A stretch of DNA of 23,070 nt, from positions 1 to 23,070 of IMG/VR virus record IMGVR_UViG_3300036716_001969; one strand, written 5' to 3'. Position 1 is the stretch's first letter. The number at the start of each line of letters is the position of its first letter. This DNA is from a virus. The notes under the pieces are model-generated. The model did not search any database and was not told the origin of the DNA. It saw only the letters and a list, made by a program, of their open reading frames with translations. Below, one piece after another: positions 5,907-15,764 of this stretch. Position numbers and translations under genes: made by a program.

Positions 5907-7457
5907 TTATCTTATCGGTGCCGAGGGTACCTGCTTACCCGCCGAGTTGAATATTTTAACTGCTATTTCCTGTGGCATTATCTTTTTGAGGTTTTCCACA
6001 GTAAAGATGCTCTCAATTGTTTCTGAAGCCAAAAGAACCGCCTTGGCTGCATCGCTTGATGCCAACGCTGACCCTGCGAACAGCTGGCCCCATGCTTGTG
6101 CATCGGGTGGTAATTTGTTAACAATCTTCTGTACTCTCTCCAAAGCATCGAAAGTCGCAGTTCTTTGAATCCCAGTGGTTGTACGAGGGTCTTTGACCAT
6201 CTTGGCGCCCCCCATTTGCAATTCAAGAAAGGCCGGCATAAGTTGGTCTATCGTGGTACCCATCGCTGCAAGTTTTTTCATTGCTTTCTGACGCATGAAT
6301 ATCTCGGTTGCTGCAGCCCTTGACATCTTGGACAACTGTATAGCGAATCTGTCGGCGGCCGGACGCGTTCGGTCAATTCCTGTTCTCAAAGTGTCTAACG
6401 ACCTTCCCAGTTGTTTTGACTTCATAGCGGTTGGGTCCTTAGCCTCTATCGCCTTCATCGACTTCTTCTCATCTATCTTTAAGTCCCCTCTGAGGAATTT
6501 GCGAGTGGTTGCCGCGTCCATACCCAGAGTCTTTCCTAATGCTAGGATTTCGAACTTGCCCATATCCTCGATGCTTCGACCGGATTCCATTATGGAACTG
6601 CGGACCTTTTTTGCTCTCTCCGCTTCGGTCATTGTCAACAGTTCCATTGAGTTAAAGGCGGACTTACCTAAAATCTGATTTAATTTCCCTGCTTTTTCTG
6701 CTGCTCCGGTAAAGGTGTCCATCCCGTCTCCGGAGAATGTATCCATCAACTGGTCAAAACCTACACCAGTTGTTGTGGACATTTTTTGCAAATCAATGAA
6801 ATTATCCATCATCTTGTCGGCCGTATAAGCAAAGTTTTTCTGCGCGAATTGAAAGTTCTTAGCTAACTCACCTGCAGAAACTGGTATCTCTCTCTGCACA
6901 TTTATGAGAGTACTTGTCAGTCCTTTTATTTCCGACTCGTTCTGGTTAAATGCGAAAGCTGCGGTGTCGACAATTTGTGCAAAATCACTCATTTCAAAGC
7001 CGGCACCTTGCATTGCAACGCCGGCAGTCATTAATGTTTTGGTGAAATCCTTAGATGCAACCGCAATTGCTAAAGTGTTATCCCTAAATGCAGCAGTTAC
7101 ATTAGAAGCTGCGGCAAGATTACCATTCAAGTCTAAACTAGCTTTATTTGCCGCAGAGATAGCCTTTGAAAAATCGTACATCTGACCAGAATAGCCTGCT
7201 TGAAAAAACTTTTGGTTTTGGTCTTGAAACTCTTTGGTTGAGGCGACCAATGCGGTAAAATGGCCTAGAACTTGTTCCGTTGGTTCGGTTATTGCCTTCA
7301 TCGCATCGCCAACAGATTTAATGGAGGCAGACGCCATTTTGCCGGTTGCCTTTGCAGCCTTGCTAAAGGCCGATTCGATATGCTTCTTTCCCTCGCGAGA
7401 AATGCCCTCGTAAGTCTTTTTGTCTTTTTCTTCTAATCCCTTTAGAAAATCAGTCAT
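5907..7457 (-). CDS. Tail tape measure protein (short, 516 aa)
   Basis: The protein is predominantly alpha-helical and Ala/Lys/Met-rich. Its N-terminus is charged and helical, followed by long heptad-like stretches (for example KAISAANKASLDLNGNLAAA) and a middle part resembling the tape-measure N-terminal domain. It sits directly downstream of the tail assembly chaperone and upstream of tail-tip genes, the position held by the tape measure in almost all long-tailed phages. No lysozyme, peptidase or clear membrane-spanning hairpin was seen. In tailed phages the tape measure sets tail length at about 0.15 nm per residue, so 516 residues would predict a rather short tail near 75-80 nm. The start at 7457 follows AGGAGAGG. 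Confidence 0.8.
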   Translation of the reverse strand: MTDFLKGLEEKDKKTYEGISREGKKHIESAFSKAAKATGKMASASIKSVGDAMKAITEPTEQVLGHFTALVASTKEFQDQNQKFFQAGYSGQMYDFSKAISAANKASLDLNGNLAAASNVTAAFRDNTLAIAVASKDFTKTLMTAGVAMQGAGFEMSDFAQIVDTAAFAFNQNESEIKGLTSTLINVQREIPVSAGELAKNFQFAQKNFAYTADKMMDNFIDLQKMSTTTGVGFDQLMDTFSGDGMDTFTGAAEKAGKLNQILGKSAFNSMELLTMTEAERAKKVRSSIMESGRSIEDMGKFEILALGKTLGMDAATTRKFLRGDLKIDEKKSMKAIEAKDPTAMKSKQLGRSLDTLRTGIDRTRPAADRFAIQLSKMSRAAATEIFMRQKAMKKLAAMGTTIDQLMPAFLELQMGGAKMVKDPRTTTGIQRTATFDALERVQKIVNKLPPDAQAWGQLFAGSALASSDAAKAVLLASETIESIFTVENLKKIMPQEIAVKIFNSAGKQVPSAPIR

Positions 7458-7505
7458 TGAATAAGCCTCTCCTATACAGACTAAATAGGTGGGTTCAGGG
7501 GTTTA

Positions 7506-7671
7506 TTATTCTGGTTTATCTTCAATGTCCCTGATTAAGCGGTTTAGAAACCACTCTCGAAGTTGCACGGGTAGGCTATAAGCTTCCGTAAACGTCCACT
7601 TACCATGCTTCATCAGTATATATATCGATTCGTAAGTACCCTTCTCGACGTACTCTTTAGTTAGACCAAAA
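7506..7671 (-). CDS. Frameshift extension of the tail assembly chaperone (GT-type, +1 frame)
   Basis: This stretch was not in the supplied list because it has no normal start codon. From the TTTT at 7671-7668 a frame one base ahead of the chaperone gene stays open for 53 codons to TAA at 7508-7506. It encodes GLTKEYVEKGTYESIY, then ILMKHGKWTFTEAYSL and PVQLREWFLNRL, and ends in an acidic tail. This looks like real protein: an amphipathic helical segment typical of the second domain of tail chaperones. Shifting on TTT would give a 347-residue fusion of 294 plus 53 residues. The first in-frame ATG would leave only about 35 residues and has no ribosome site. A CTG at 7682-7680, nine bases after an internal AAGGAGG, is a less likely independent start. 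Confidence 0.78.
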
Positions 7672-7698
7672 CCAGCCCACAGAGAAGGGCACCTCCTT
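7657..7698 (-). promoter_or_regulatory. Probable +1 programmed frameshift site with internal Shine-Dalgarno-like sequence
   Basis: On the coding strand the chaperone ends ..GGC TGG TTT TGG TCT AAC TAA. A tRNA-Phe on TTT (7671-7669) can move one base forward and still pair with TTT (7670-7668). The next codon is Trp, and the stop lies two codons further on. An AAGGAGG sequence at 7698-7692 lies 20 bases upstream of the slip codon. Internal Shine-Dalgarno sequences stimulate recoding in prfB and dnaX, but at closer spacing, so its role here is unclear. A one-base sequencing error in the homopolymer is the main alternative. Confidence 0.65.
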
Positions 7699-8550
7699 TT
7701 CTACTTCTGTAGAGCATGAGGGACAAGTAACATTCTGTTTTGTATCGAATGCTGGAACGTTCATATTATGTGCATATTTTATCATTCTTGCATCAGCTGC
7801 AGGAAGAATATCAATTAGCTTGGATAGGTCTGACATATCAACGATATCATTCACTGAGACTAACGCTCTTCTAATAAACTCAATTGTTTCGTTGTAAGGT
7901 AAGTTTAGCCGGTCTTTCTGCTCTTTGGATTTCTGCAAAAACTGAATATCTTCTCTTGATAGGAGTTTTACTCTCGCTGACAATCCCGTCACCGGCAAAA
8001 CAATTTCCAAAGTCTCGCTCGTAGTATCATACTTCCATTGATCAGTGTCCTCTATCTCAAACTTTTCAGTCTTTGTTTTTTCAAGCATTGCTGAAAGGCT
8101 GACCTCTACAGTCGATAGCTCTCCGCACTCTGGACAATCATGATTGATATCTAGACCGTCACCATACCCCGTCTTTCTTGCTGAGACCAGTATTGCAACT
8201 TTGTCACAATCTAATAAATCTGCAGCTCTTACTCCTTGGGTTATCATAAGCGAGTCTATTAACTTATCAAAAACAATCCCTTGCTCAATAAAACTATCAT
8301 TAATCATGATATCTTCTTCTTTTGCAGTCATTGACTTGATTTCAAGGCTCTCTAGTCCACTAATTGGGCTATTCTGCTCATAAAACTTGCCCCCACTAGG
8401 CAGATGTACTATCTCTGTCGCGACGGCGAAAGAAAGCCCAAATGGATTGGGCTTTTCCTGTTGCATGTGGGGGCTCATATTTTGCTGCGGTGGTACCGCT
8501 TCTGACTCCACAGACTTAGGTATCTGTGTTCTTCTCGAATTTCTTGACAT
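7657..8550 (-). CDS. Tail assembly chaperone / T4 gp26-family (T4_baseplate) protein with zinc-binding Cys pairs
   Basis: The zero-frame product has 297 residues. From about residue 37 it shows the pattern of the T4_baseplate/gp26 family common in T4-like phages: FGLSFAVATEIVHLPSGGKF, then TAKEEDIMINDSFIEQG with a long helix, then a GDK-like segment (LLDCDKVAILVSARKTGYG). C139-x2-C142 and C276-x2-C279 form two CPxC knuckles that together look like a split zinc ribbon. The first 35 residues are Pro/Gln-rich and disordered. The gene lies between tube and tape-measure genes, the classic place for the G/GT chaperones that wrap the tape measure before tube assembly. A 53-codon out-of-frame extension follows. 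The start at 8550 has AGAGGAAAC upstream. Whether it acts as chaperone, baseplate part or both is inference. Confidence 0.8.
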   Translation of the reverse strand: MSRNSRRTQIPKSVESEAVPPQQNMSPHMQQEKPNPFGLSFAVATEIVHLPSGGKFYEQNSPISGLESLEIKSMTAKEEDIMINDSFIEQGIVFDKLIDSLMITQGVRAADLLDCDKVAILVSARKTGYGDGLDINHDCPECGELSTVEVSLSAMLEKTKTEKFEIEDTDQWKYDTTSETLEIVLPVTGLSARVKLLSREDIQFLQKSKEQKDRLNLPYNETIEFIRRALVSVNDIVDMSDLSKLIDILPAADARMIKYAHNMNVPAFDTKQNVTCPSCSTEVEKEVPFSVGWFWSN

Positions 8551-8587
8551 GTTTCCTCTTTTAACTATTAACTAACTGTCTCTTGAC

Positions 8588-9175
8588 TTAATCTTCTGGG
8601 TTGAAACCCGCTCCCTCTTGGCTATTGAGATCCCAGGTTCCGGTTGGTTTAGGATTGTTTTTGCCGCTGACGCCATCGATTGTAGCATAATCATAGGTTA
8701 TGCTTATACTGATGTTCAATAAATCATCTGCACTATAGTCTAGCGTATCAAATTCTACAGAAGTTATTAGAGGGTTGTGGATTCTCCACTTTTCGGCCTC
8801 AGTAACACCGTCTGCTTTGAGCTGGACTAATTGTATTTGAGTACCTAGCGCCTCGACCATACCCTTTTTAGAGATGGTGGTCGCCTGGTTTTCATTATAT
8901 TCACTTGGGATAACATATCCAGAGTTTTCCAAAATCTTATACAAACTTTTTGTAGAATCCGGATTGACTGGGTCAACAAGAGTAATATCGATGGGATTCC
9001 ATTTTACTCTTCCTGGGTAATTGAATTCATAATTCAAAAACTGATGTGGTGTAGTCTCCACATTATAGCTCGGCTTCTTCACGCTCTTTACCACGAACTG
9101 GGGCACGCCTGTCCAATAGAGGAGCCATCTGAACTTCCTCTTTGGCTCGACTTGTCTTTCATTCCAAAATGCCAT
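8588..9175 (-). CDS. gp19: Tail tube protein (gp19-like)
   Basis: This 195-residue protein is slightly longer than T4 gp19 (163). Hallmarks of the T4-like tube family are visible: an N-terminal KFRWLLYW strand, PSYNVETTPHQFLNYEF around residues 35-51, then GRVKWNPIDITLVDPVNPD, which is the conserved beta segment leading to a helical region ending SGYVIP. The C-terminal half has NPLITSVEFDTLDYSADDLL and an ISITYDYA strand, as in the inner-tube beta-barrel. Hexamers of this protein should stack to form the inner tube inside the sheath. It follows the sheath gene by 53 bp, the normal order. The start at 9175 has AATAGGAGACTTAATATA upstream. Confidence 0.88.
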   Translation of the reverse strand: MAFWNERQVEPKRKFRWLLYWTGVPQFVVKSVKKPSYNVETTPHQFLNYEFNYPGRVKWNPIDITLVDPVNPDSTKSLYKILENSGYVIPSEYNENQATTISKKGMVEALGTQIQLVQLKADGVTEAEKWRIHNPLITSVEFDTLDYSADDLLNISISITYDYATIDGVSGKNNPKPTGTWDLNSQEGAGFNPED

Positions 9176-12257: not shown

Positions 12258-15200
12258 TTATTGGTTGATGTACTTGACGATGACTTCGTCTTCTGCAGCT
12301 ATTGAGTTACCAGATCCCAATGTAATGGTGGAGCCACTAATTGTGTAATCTGTACCCTGAGATTGCATAATGCCGTTGAAGTACACAGAAACGGCCGCGG
12401 CAGATGCAGGAGCGTTAGTCAACTCATCATAGGCTCCTCCTGAGCCAAATAGTACGGCAGATGCTGCGCATGCAGTACCGGTCTCGCGGACCTCTGAATG
12501 AGTAATCGAAAGAACACCAGCACTGGTCATCTGGATACCGTCGCCCTTAATATCACTGTTAAGCTTCGCACCAGTAACCTGGTCATCACCTAGATGAGCA
12601 GTGTCGATAGAGCCATCAACATACTGGTCACTATCAACAGAGTTTGCTGACATGTGAACAAGGTCGATAGAACCGTCAACGTACTGGTCACTGTCGACAG
12701 AGTTTGCTGACATGTGATCGAGGTCAATTGCGCCTGAGGCGATTTCTGCAGAGTCAACCGAGTCGGCTGAAAGCGTTAGAACACCAGCTGACAGAGTAGC
12801 ATCACCACTCATTGCAACCCAAGCGGCATCGGTGCCGTCAGATTGGAAAAAGCGATTTGCAGCACCTAGAGCCAGTGCCTGTGGGTCACCGGAAGCATCA
12901 CCAGAAATGATAGAGCCACGGGCGATACCAGCCATCTTAGCTAGTGTAACCTGATTATCCGCGATGTGAGCAGTGTCAATTGAGCCGTCGACGTACTGGT
13001 CGCTATCAACAGAGTTTGCACTCATGTGAGCCAAGTCGATTGCTCCGGCTGCAATGTGCTCGCTGTCTACAGCATCATCTTCAATCTTAGTGCCGTCAAT
13101 AACGTCAGCAGAAAGGTGTACTCTATCAATAGAGCCATCAACGTATTGGTCACTATCTACAGAGTTTGCAGACATGTGAATTAAGTCGATAGAGCCATCA
13201 ACGTATTGGTCACTGTCGACAGAGTTGGCTGACATGTGCTCAAGGTCAATAGAACCAGCAGCAAAGTGCTCACTGTCAACAGCATCATCGGCAATCTTAG
13301 TGCCGTCGATTGCATCTGCAGCAATATAAGCTCGAGCAACAGCAGTACCCTGCCACACACCGGCTGCGATAGTGCCAACCGAAGTCAAGCTTGAACCAAC
13401 AACGCTAGAACCTAGTGTCGTAGCACTAAGGACAGAAGCGTTATTGATCTTAAATTCTTGACTAGATGCAAGATTCAAGTGGTCAGAAACGTCCCAAGAG
13501 TCAACACCGTCATAGAGTAGGGAGGCCAAAGAGCCCGACGTGCCCGCGTCTTTGCCGATAGCGACACCTGCGCCGCCTGCAGAAGCGATTGAAGCGTTAG
13601 AAGAACCGGAAGCAAAAACCATTGCCTTATCAGCAATAGCAACAACAGTTGAGTTAACAGTTGTGGTGGTCCCGCCAACAACAAGATTGCCAGTCAGAGT
13701 AAGATCTTTGGCTCCCACATCGCCGTCGGCGTCAACAGAGAAGCCGGACATGGTGATTGTTCCCATTGTGAGATCGCCGGAGCCATCAATACTTGTGGCT
13801 CCAGCGATTGCGTTGGCAGTTGTGATACCACCAGAGAAGACTGCTGCGGCTTGGAAAGTTGGCACACCTTCAACATTTAGAGTACCATCGATATCAGTGT
13901 TACCATTTCGAGCAACAGTGAATTCTGCCATCGCGATGGTTCCAACTGCTAATTCGCCAGAACCAGAAATGGTTGTTGCACCAGCAACTGCGCCGGCTGT
14001 GCTAATAGTAAGGTTACCATTAACGTCCACGCCACCGTCAAGAGAAGCAAGGGCACTAAAGGTTTTAGCACCTGAAAAAGTCTGAGCAGTGGTCAGGTGA
14101 GCAGTGTCAGCATCCAAATAGGCTGAATCGATGACTGTACCTTGCCAAACACCAGTTGCGATGGTACCAAGGGCCGTAACTTGAGTTTGGGAAGCATCGA
14201 CTGCCAATACGCCGCTGGTTGCGGTAAGGCCGGTGCCACCTAACTCAGTTGCAACATCATCATGAACCATTCCAGTTTGGACGGCGTTAGCAGCGATAGT
14301 CAAAGCGCCTCCGTCAGCGACAGTTGCATCACCAGAGATAGCTGCAAAGTAGTGATTTTGAAGACTGTCAAGGCCGACCTTCTTAAGCAGGCCGCCATCA
14401 CTAATCATCAATTCGTCTGCGTCTGCAATGTCGGCATGAGCCAACTCTGTTTGACCAGAAATAACATTGTCGTTAAGCATTGAACCCTCAACTGCATCAG
14501 CTACAATTGTGGCGGCGCCGCCGGCGGCAATAGTGACATCACCGGCTGCGGTGGTGACGTTAGCGAAAATTGCATCCTCGAGGTTACCGAAAGTAATACT
14601 CTTTGGCTTACTGTCAGTTGCATCCTGGAAAGCAAAGGAATCTGCTTGTGCAACTGCAGTCAATGCACTCAAGCCTGCAAGGTCTAGCATCAATGCGGAC
14701 TTACCGTCTGCGGAACCTGACAAACCACCTGACCCTGAAAGGGCAATCTGTCTTGCTGAAATTTGTAATCGTTTAGCCACTGTATCTCCTCCCGAAGATG
14801 CACCACCCGACATACCACTTAGGGTTATGTTGGTAGCGTCTGTTGTTGTTATTGTAACGTTTCCGTCTGTACCTTCCACGTCATTTGTTAGACTAACTGT
14901 ACCATCACTAACTGTTGCTGTAATCTGAATAGGCAGATTATTAATAAGAGCACCGATGTAAGTCGCAAACTGGGCTGTAGTCAAAGTTGAACTACTGTCC
15001 CCCGAGGCGCCACGAGCAGCATAAACTGCTTCGTTAGCGGTCTGGACCGATGCCATGTTGTTGTTACCTCTATCAGTACCTACCTTCCAGGCAACTACGC
15101 CGGCGTCAGTCCAACTAGCACTTCCCGATGGAACCAGAGCAAGACTTAGCACGTTAGCCGCTGAGGTCGCTCTATCATCCATTACTCGCAAATAATTGCT

Positions 15201-15764
15201 AGAAACAGTTAATTGAGATGTGTAGAAGTCTGCTTCACCTGCGGTGTTGGCTGCTGTAAAGATCGACTTAATAGTATTCATTGTGTTTGACAGGTTAGTA
15301 ATACTATTCAAGTTGATCGAATAATCGCCTGTGCCGTTATCTCTACCATAACTGCCAAGGCCCGAGGTGGCGGTGAAACCGGAAGCCAAATCGACAAAGT
15401 CGATTGTAAACCCTCCAAACCCCGGTTGCTTGAATTGCAGCTTTGCTGGGGCGGTGCCGTCATTCTTAAAAGCAGCCTTCCAGTCTGCAAAAGAAGCTCC
15501 GCCGTCGGCGAGAGAGAAGTCAAAGAAAGGTCTTCGACTAGTGTTACCTTGCTGATATACAGTTACCAACTCCGACGCATTGCCATCGACTGTATTGTTG
15601 GATGCGGCGGTGCCGGATACAAAAATGCTGGATAAGCTCGAGTCATTAACTTGAACGCCAAGTTTGAGCGTACTGTAAGCAGCGCTTTGACCGTCATTAA
15701 TAGTAATGACAGTATATTGGTTCGGTAAACCTGAAAAGGCTATAGAACCTGCTGAATAAGCCAT
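12258..15764 (-). CDS. Repeat-rich fibre/structural protein, 1168 aa (tail, neck or head fibre)
   Basis: The composition (Ser, Thr, Ala, Gly, Asp) and repeats are those of phage fibres. The N-terminal ~330 residues are irregular beta-rich sequence. The middle has repeated modules such as TIATGVWQGTVID / TIAAGVWQGTAVA and two copies of a GSGxLxxGTIxMxxF unit. Residues about 843-1054 contain five copies of SANSVDSDQYVDGSID plus related DGTKIxDDAVDSEH units. The last 43 residues form a small beta domain with VYFNGIMQ and DYTISG, shared with the gp15-like protein. There is no S74 chaperone-type Ser-Lys ending. The start at 15764 follows AGGAGGAATAAGT, part of which can be hidden in a hairpin. It lies between neck genes and sheath. 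T4 fibritin (whiskers) also neighbours neck genes, so a neck fibre is one option and a receptor-binding tail fibre the other. Confidence 0.8.
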   Translation of the reverse strand: MAYSAGSIAFSGLPNQYTVITINDGQSAAYSTLKLGVQVNDSSLSSIFVSGTAASNNTVDGNASELVTVYQQGNTSRRPFFDFSLADGGASFADWKAAFKNDGTAPAKLQFKQPGFGGFTIDFVDLASGFTATSGLGSYGRDNGTGDYSINLNSITNLSNTMNTIKSIFTAANTAGEADFYTSQLTVSSNYLRVMDDRATSAANVLSLALVPSGSASWTDAGVVAWKVGTDRGNNNMASVQTANEAVYAARGASGDSSSTLTTAQFATYIGALINNLPIQITATVSDGTVSLTNDVEGTDGNVTITTTDATNITLSGMSGGASSGGDTVAKRLQISARQIALSGSGGLSGSADGKSALMLDLAGLSALTAVAQADSFAFQDATDSKPKSITFGNLEDAIFANVTTAAGDVTIAAGGAATIVADAVEGSMLNDNVISGQTELAHADIADADELMISDGGLLKKVGLDSLQNHYFAAISGDATVADGGALTIAANAVQTGMVHDDVATELGGTGLTATSGVLAVDASQTQVTALGTIATGVWQGTVIDSAYLDADTAHLTTAQTFSGAKTFSALASLDGGVDVNGNLTISTAGAVAGATTISGSGELAVGTIAMAEFTVARNGNTDIDGTLNVEGVPTFQAAAVFSGGITTANAIAGATSIDGSGDLTMGTITMSGFSVDADGDVGAKDLTLTGNLVVGGTTTTVNSTVVAIADKAMVFASGSSNASIASAGGAGVAIGKDAGTSGSLASLLYDGVDSWDVSDHLNLASSQEFKINNASVLSATTLGSSVVGSSLTSVGTIAAGVWQGTAVARAYIAADAIDGTKIADDAVDSEHFAAGSIDLEHMSANSVDSDQYVDGSIDLIHMSANSVDSDQYVDGSIDRVHLSADVIDGTKIEDDAVDSEHIAAGAIDLAHMSANSVDSDQYVDGSIDTAHIADNQVTLAKMAGIARGSIISGDASGDPQALALGAANRFFQSDGTDAAWVAMSGDATLSAGVLTLSADSVDSAEIASGAIDLDHMSANSVDSDQYVDGSIDLVHMSANSVDSDQYVDGSIDTAHLGDDQVTGAKLNSDIKGDGIQMTSAGVLSITHSEVRETGTACAASAVLFGSGGAYDELTNAPASAAAVSVYFNGIMQSQGTDYTISGSTITLGSGNSIAAEDEVIVKYINQ
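12604..13238 (-). repeat. 60-bp-period repeats within the fibre gene
   Basis: Five near-identical copies of about 53 bp encode SANSVDSDQYVDGSID. They end (plus strand) in CATGTG at 12656, 12716, 13028, 13178 and 13238. Copies 1-2 and copies 4-5 are exact tandem pairs with a 60-bp (20-residue) period. Copy 3 is separated from both pairs by other units. Third-position differences separate copies (ATACTGG, GTACTGG, GTATTGG), so they are not a recent single duplication. Such arrays can change copy number by recombination. Confidence 0.9.

Follow-up and report, generated by a model that had tools for sequence, protein, structure and literature searches.

A gene in the window, by which we mean the whole 23,070-nucleotide stretch of viral DNA analysed here, is likely (probability of about 0.85) to be a gp26-family chaperone gene in which a ribosomal +1 shift yields a short and a long form of the protein, there being no protein, ribosome-profiling or reporter data as yet. 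Access to the extension through the +1 frame is very likely; slippage itself and its rate are inferred. A bolder reading, which we favour by a small margin, is that a large T4-like lineage uses a natural +1 shift stimulated by a hairpin on the 5' (E-site) side, and that the direction of shifting at homologous Phe-Phe codons has switched between +1, with the hairpin, and -1, without it, within one family. The helper gene and its link to the chaperones are already known, and the novelty probably lies in the +1 direction and in the conserved 5' hairpin before the slip.

The probable chaperone gene and its reading frames

The source contig is a 23-kb sequence of a marine virus with T4-like head and tail genes, namely those for a Gp23 capsid, a sheath and a gp19-like tube. 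The gene of interest and its neighbours are as follows.

8588-9175, minus strand: tail tube protein (gp19-like), upstream neighbour (phrog_4542, E=2.4e-24)
8550-7657, minus strand: TAC-N, short tail assembly chaperone (T4 gp26 / T4_baseplate family), 297 aa, assigned from PF12322, phrog_150 and synteny
7668-7671, minus strand: putative +1 slip site UUU_U, then GG; P-site TTT at 7671-7669, with U 7668 skipped or re-paired
7657-7659, minus strand: frame-0 stop TAA, two sense codons past the TGG that follows the slip codon; a stop is also present there in window-clade relatives
7506-7667, minus strand: TAC-C, +1-frame extension of 53 codons and a stop (GLTKEYVEK..EDKPE)
5907-7457, minus strand: probable tape measure protein, 516 aa, downstream neighbour; its position matches annotated tape measure genes in two relatives (L007, L013)

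The frames themselves are shown. The 3' end of the TAC-N gene in frame 0 reads ..GTG CCC TTC TCT GTG GGC TGG TTT TGG TCT AAC TAA, with TGG at 7674-7672, TTT at 7671-7669, TGG at 7668-7666 and TAA at 7659-7657, and the protein accordingly ends ..VPFSVGWFWSN*. A P-site re-pairing codon of the prfB type (CUU_U, UUU_U) is present here as TTT_T. One base ahead, the +1 frame (GGT CTA ACT AAA...) stays open for 53 codons at 7667-7509 before a stop at 7508-7506; it reads GLTKEYVEKGTYESIYILMKHGKWTFTEAYSLPVQLREWFLNRLIRDIEDKPE, with the stop at 7506. ATG, GTG and TTG were sought in this frame between the preceding stop and the slip, and none was found. Shifts of -1 and -2 were considered for the window and rejected, the -1 frame being closed immediately and re-pairing after a -2 shift being impossible, by inspection, at TGG TTT TGG.

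TAC-N matched PF12322 (T4_baseplate) with E=7.2e-10 and 39.4 bits, against a curated cut-off of 24.5, and phrog_150 ('baseplate hub') with E=1.3e-9, and its gene lies directly past the tube gene, in the same place as in relatives. In profile comparisons using hhalign, TAC-N aligned with T4 gp26 over 180 columns (46% probability, E=2e-4), WF being placed against FF at the end; this profile support for homology to gp26 is moderate, with membership of PF12322 also in its favour. A profile of 22 +1 extensions matched the gp51 C-terminus together with cyanophage and -1 extensions at 94% probability (E=1.6e-7). In T4, gp26 ends GLKEFFELL and gp51 is encoded by a separate, longer gene. Because T4 encodes gp26 and gp51 separately and the extension profile matches the gp51 C-terminal family, and from synteny and family, the window gene is very likely a G/GT-type tail assembly chaperone of the T4 gp26 family; binding and product levels are inferred. 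In lambda, G binds the tape measure and T binds the tube (PMC5009743), and by analogy with gpG and gpGT, TAC-N and TAC-NC (the short and the predicted long form) may bind tape measure and tube.

AlphaFold2 predicted a compact helical model for the TAC-C extension, with pLDDT of about 80-88 over the core, and gave a poor model of TAC-N (mean pLDDT 53.5). A search of solved structures with the TAC-N profile yielded no match, nor did family searches (Pfam, phrog) with the product of 5907-7457.

Two observations are recorded apart from this argument. The extensions at L041:2749-2928 and L116:2811-3038 resembled Pfam DUF6760 (PF20546) weakly and below its cut-off (E=0.0012 and 0.038). DUF6760 adjoins T4_baseplate proteins in contractile injection systems, and it is possible that it represents the TAC-C part of those systems. 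Elsewhere in the window, 60-bp tandem repeats (type HMSANSVDSDQYVDGSID) at 12603-12725 and 13126-13282 lie within a 1168-aa ORF (12258-15764), which is likely to encode a repetitive tail or fibre protein.

Relatives and the direction of the inferred shift

An independent contig from another metagenome (L002, 96% amino-acid identity) carries an identical TTTT and stop. TTTTGG, the frame-0 stop and the extension are all retained in L003/L005, L019, L021, L022, L024, L025, L026, L028, L031 and L032, about ten window-clade lineages keeping the site at 55-68% protein identity, and TTT is invariant at the slip position in 14/14 window-clade sequences; conservation of the site is thereby shown. Over nine extensions, pN/pS was 0.27 in the +1 frame, as against 1.21 and 1.53 for the same DNA in the other two frames: the extension is under purifying coding selection, and in the +1 frame only. 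Because independent assemblies are concordant and synonymous changes lie all around the four T's, it is very unlikely that the slip site of the window really holds three or five.

Alignment-based scans of IMG/VR returned some 200 loci, and 194 distinct complete genes were classified. The +1 frame was the only one open in 171, 16 more were open in both frames, the homologous stretch being that in +1, and 7 were of the -1 type, so that 187/194 carry the +1 extension; the search was seeded with +1-type queries, and these counts are therefore no unbiased frequency. The commonest gene end was TTT TTT TGG CCT (105/171 loci). Among 176 nonredundant loci the P-site codon was TTT_T in 138, TTT_C in 20 and CTT_T in 7, hence able to re-pair at +1 in 165, whereas other Phe codons took the form TTT_T or TTT_C in 292/1636. 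The extension is without any ATG, GTG or TTG in 73 of 175 loci. More distant isolates also carry a +1 extension on the gene between tube and tape measure, these being Flavobacterium phage immuto, Microcystis phage Mel-JY01, Bacillus phage SP-15 and Listeria phage LIS04. A search of genomes for cellular relatives gave a single locus, on a MAG contig. A distant subgroup (L215, L218, L220, L224) ends ELFNPS and has no UUU_Y slip site; the only well re-pairing candidate spotted there was CCC_A, which may possibly replace UUU_Y, as inferred from the sequences.

The homologous extension lies in the -1 frame in the jumbo phages RAS14, XacN1, PA5oct, BF, Munch, GAP32, XaC1, RaK2, XbC2 and Atu_ph07, at TTT TTC or TTT TTT after a T-ending codon (U UUU UUC/U), and also in cyanophage S-RIM8. 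On a tree of 83 TAC-N proteins, built with the last residues removed, three direction changes were needed, compared with 16.5 in shuffles. Three individual cases may be mentioned here. L012 (LR756511, a huge uncultured phage) is an isolated -1 case (GGT TTT TTC) inside a +1 branch and possibly a recent switch of frameshift direction. L159:2001-2760 reads TTC TTC TGG with the extension in -1, its neighbours being +1; it is one contig and may hold an assembly indel. In cyanophage S-SCSM1 (L240, 1471-2374), where gp26 ends FFA*, the gp51-like ORF is in the +1 frame and possesses an ATG of its own, in contrast to that of S-RIM8 (-1); it may now be a separate gene.

The original prediction had claimed a +1 frame entered by a TTT-T slip, a G/GT-type architecture and a T4_baseplate family gene, and all of these were supported, the sequence details on which it relied all being present. 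It also held that AAGGAGG lies 20 bases upstream (found at 7698-7692), that the extension has no proper start (no ATG, GTG or TTG) and that -1 gives the wrong frame (the -1 frame closes). The conservation check it proposed, TTTT at the same codon with a stop soon after, was run and met in relatives. The outcome that would have refuted it, an extension that is a separately started gene, was not encountered in the window lineage; T4 does show it (gp26/gp51), and so, probably, does one cyanophage. The prediction overlooked an alternative +1-prone codon, CCC-U, and a hairpin conserved on the 5' side of the slip site.

The hairpin 5' of the slip codons

In 176 nonredundant +1 loci, the 27 nt 5' of the slip pair folded with a mean of -5.17 kcal/mol, compared with -2.90 when synonymous codons were shuffled within each gene (z -19.7). 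The excess declines upstream of the slip and is near zero from 18 codons away. The baseline is imperfectly flat, with a weaker excess of structure 9-12 codons upstream (z -4.5, -2.8) and downstream of the slip (z up to -5.8). In contrast, fifteen -1 relatives had no 5' hairpin excess (-1.23 vs -1.18, z -0.1). When the +1 loci were grouped into 91 sequence clusters, the excess (negative) was found in 71 (Wilcoxon p = 2.8e-11); 39/176 loci, about a fifth, are without any. The excess across the family is thus shown. It persists in loci with shorter T runs, with z -6.4 for T4-5 and z -5.1 for T at most 3, the latter class having 21 members, two of which (L042, L101) are mis-anchored and truly T7.

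Covariation between the arms is also shown. A count in a fixed register proved uninformative, as the hairpin occupies several registers even within one group, and arm swaps were used instead: exchanging 3' arms among members of the same group lowered the stem score, and for three groups 0, 3 and 4 of 2000 swaps attained the real one. The 3' ends of the stems lie mostly 1-4 nt 5' of the Phe pair, as in L184, which reads GTTGCGGTC-CCTGT-GACCGCAAC-A-TTTTTTTGG (stem-loop-stem-spacer-slip), and L172, which reads TGTACCG-ATGA-CGGTACA-G-TTTTTTTGG. An SD-like motif 5' of the hairpin was present in 11/13 window-clade sequences, compared with 5.9 (sd 1.3) in synonymous shuffles, and in 61/68 of the next group, compared with 25.8. 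An Rfam search of 7400-8600 gave no match at E<=1. On balance we lean towards the 5' hairpin being a frameshift stimulator in the wider +1 lineage, its effect on the ribosome being inferred.

In the window itself the relevant features are these.

7692-7698, minus strand: SD-like AAGGAGG, 20 nt 5' of the TTT slip codon, about 4 nt with hairpin B looped out, and 2 nt from CCC
7683-7697, minus strand: hairpin A, AGGAGG (7697-7692), loop TGC, CCTTCT (7688-7683), in the fold of 7699-7676; a longer version occurs in L003
7675-7690, minus strand: hairpin B, GCCC (7690-7687), loop TTCTCTGT, GGGC (7678-7675), 3 nt 5' of TTT, in the MFE of 7699-7666
7686-7689, minus strand: CCC_U, alternative +1 slip candidate; CCC in 14/14 clade sequences, without conservation in distant relatives

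Hairpins A and B are mutually exclusive. Both arms of hairpin B are retained in L039 and L040 despite a different loop. The 14 window-clade genes have 65 invariant amino-acid columns with degenerate codons, of which 61 vary in codon; three of the four codon-invariant columns are CCC, GGC and TTT of the last seven codons, CCC being uncommon at prolines elsewhere. The gene end is therefore under constraint beyond protein sequence, and this synonymous constraint is shown. The fold of this site in the window is, taken by itself, no better than dinucleotide shuffles and only in about the best 10% of synonymous shuffles, and covariation cannot choose between hairpins A and B because both arms are invariant in the clade. 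With support so limited, whether a 5' hairpin acts as the stimulator in the window could go either way, and its register is inferred. Separately, masking of AGGAGG by the downstream CCTTCT (7697-7683) raises the possibility that hairpin A also controls anti-SD access.

Mechanism, rival explanations and known systems

In the mechanism we propose, most ribosomes would stop at the TAA at 7659-7657 and release the short form, TAC-N. In a minority, P-site tRNA-Phe on UUU would move one base forward (UUU to UUU on UUUU) to give the long form, TAC-NC, which is TAC-N with a 53-residue helical C-terminal domain. Across the lineage the slip would be made by tRNA-Phe on UUU_U or UUU_C, or by tRNA-Leu on CUU_U, aided by a duplex on the E-site side: the small hairpin, which lies 5' of these codons and is often preceded by an SD-like motif, would form as the mRNA leaves the E site or exit channel and promote forward movement, like the SD helix in release factor 2 and the designed 5' hairpins. 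UUU_U is a natural minority shift site of RF2 (PMC5009743), SD helices 3 nt upstream have been described as +1 stimulators (PMC5009743), and hairpins designed to sit beside a slip site, as mimics of the SD helix, raise +1 shifting both in yeast and on 70S ribosomes (PMC6321510, PMC3639245). Some points count against this reading. In E. coli, UUU_U supports +1 shifting only weakly (PMC5009743); the A-site codon in the window, UGG, is not a stop and is not shown to be rare here; and the designed hairpin had its effect only when RF2 was missing and the A site thus stalled (PMC6321510).

The rival that survives best keeps the ribosomal +1 shift and moves it to CCC_U (7689-7686), with GAGG directly upstream at near the RF2 spacing. 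Listeria phage PSA makes its +1 shift at CCC_U (PMC5009743), the stretch from CCC through TTTT hardly varies within the window clade, which is what dual coding would demand, and in the distant L215, L218, L220 and L224, which have no UUU_Y, CCC_A is the best candidate left. However, most relatives have no CCC there and yet have TTT, no stop or clearly slow codon follows, and with this shift the long form would carry other residues in place of the conserved last strand (VPFSVGWF = IPxGVxFF). We regard CCC_U as unlikely, if still possible in the window clade, and the inferred slip at UUU_U as the likely one. The two predict different products, ..EVP-SLWAGF-GLTK from CCC_U and ..EVPFSVGWF-GLTK from UUU_U, and the junction peptides expected from sequence alone are EVPSLWAGFGLTK and EVPFSVGWFGLTK, respectively.

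Transcriptional slippage, in which RNA polymerase would drop one U at the T run with the help of a nascent hairpin and the edited mRNA would be read in the new frame, is the main rival for loci with T7. In its favour, the hairpin is directly followed by T7 in most of the wider lineage, and nascent stem loops have been proposed as an aid (PMC5009743). Against it, the window clade has T4 only, many broken T runs (TTTCTTTGG, TTCTTTCGT, TTATTTAAT) still have the +1 extension and the hairpin excess (z -5.1), and the remaining sites retain the logic of ribosomal re-pairing (CTT_T, TTT_C). We therefore consider it very unlikely.

Also very unlikely is a separate small gene on a non-standard start, for instance CTG at 7682-7680, 9 nt past a perfect SD, AGGAGG. 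The SD-like motif is strong and well spaced to this CTG in the +1 frame, gp51-type genes are separate in T4, and a separate start is annotated in S-SCSM1. CTG starts are rare, however, both motif and CTG are missing in many relatives whose extension has no start codon, and a separate gene would need no conservation of the slip re-pairing codon.

Sequencing or assembly error, or a broken gene, to which a T homopolymer on a single contig might point and of which the relative L159 may be a case, is all but excluded by concordant independent assemblies, isolate genomes and over 180 loci and by purifying selection on the new frame; a simple fused gene is ruled out by the independent contigs, and a family-wide error is refuted.

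We return to the UUU_U shift as the preferred reading. Natural +1 shifts in bacteria and phages have mostly been explained by an SD helix, a stop or a rare codon. In the present lineage a conserved 5' hairpin accompanies hundreds of natural +1 sites and is missing from homologous -1 sites, so that the influence of a duplex behind the ribosome on the direction of frameshifting could readily be tested here. It also suggests an annotation rule, namely a gp26-family gene with TTTTTTTGG or TTTTTTCG near its end and an extension in the +1 frame, which turns many 'hypothetical' or missing ORFs into a long tail chaperone. Our search of the open-access literature found no report of +1 shifting in the gp26 family, nor of a natural 5' hairpin at a phage +1 site.

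That gp26-family genes are tail chaperones of T4-like phages, some of them frameshifted, was reported by Vladimirov, Gautam and Davidson (2022, Virology 566:9-15), whose link we take from the citing papers (PMC10885494, PMC12846349). Of the new connection between gp26 and the G/GT chaperones claimed in the original prediction, the connection itself is thus true and the novelty is not. The Listeria +1 precedent it invoked held only in part, as the Listeria events concern the major tail protein and, in PSA, the coat protein, and no chaperone (PMC5009743). A closer precedent is the haloarchaeal myovirus HSTV-2, a contractile-tailed virus with a probable +1 shift in its G/GT counterpart (PMC5009743), though an archaeal one.

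The T4-like gp26/gp51 pair belongs to the same family, with short and long forms and an extension homologous between the window and the gp51 C-terminus, and some T4-like groups frameshift; T4 uses two genes, whereas the window lineage uses a +1 shift with a 5' hairpin. The gene for lambda gpG/gpGT likewise lies between those for tail tube and tape measure, and its extension is entered by a shift shortly before the short form ends (PMC5009743); that shift is -1 in lambda and, by inference, +1 in the window. The -1 versions (RaK2, GAP32, BF, Munch, PA5oct, Atu_ph07, RAS14, XacN1, S-RIM8) have a homologous chaperone, terminal Phe-Phe codons and a helical extension, but shift at U UUU UUC/U and lack the excess of 5' hairpins (z -0.1, n=15); TAC-N genes of T4-like phages have poly-T sites that have been described as -1 signals (PMC12846349). 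As in prfB, the gene of release factor 2 (PMC5009743), the P-site tRNA in the +1 lineage would re-pair forward on CUU_U or UUU_U, and a 5' duplex would act as stimulator. In contrast, prfB depends on UGA in the A site and on an SD 3 nt upstream, in place of which the +1 lineage has UGG or CGU, both sense codons, and a hairpin in the mRNA; in the window the SD-like motif lies 20 nt, not 3 nt, 5' of TTT, and the A site holds UGG and no stop. The designed 5' hairpins (PMC6321510, PMC3639245) likewise sit at the E-site side with a spacing of a few nt and work on 70S ribosomes, but they are engineered constructs and no natural gene, and their effect in 70S lysate required the absence of RF2. The balance of evidence tips, if not far, towards the +1 lineage being their natural, conserved counterpart, with a hairpin near the slip codons that is under selection and that is inferred to raise the frequency of +1 shifting.
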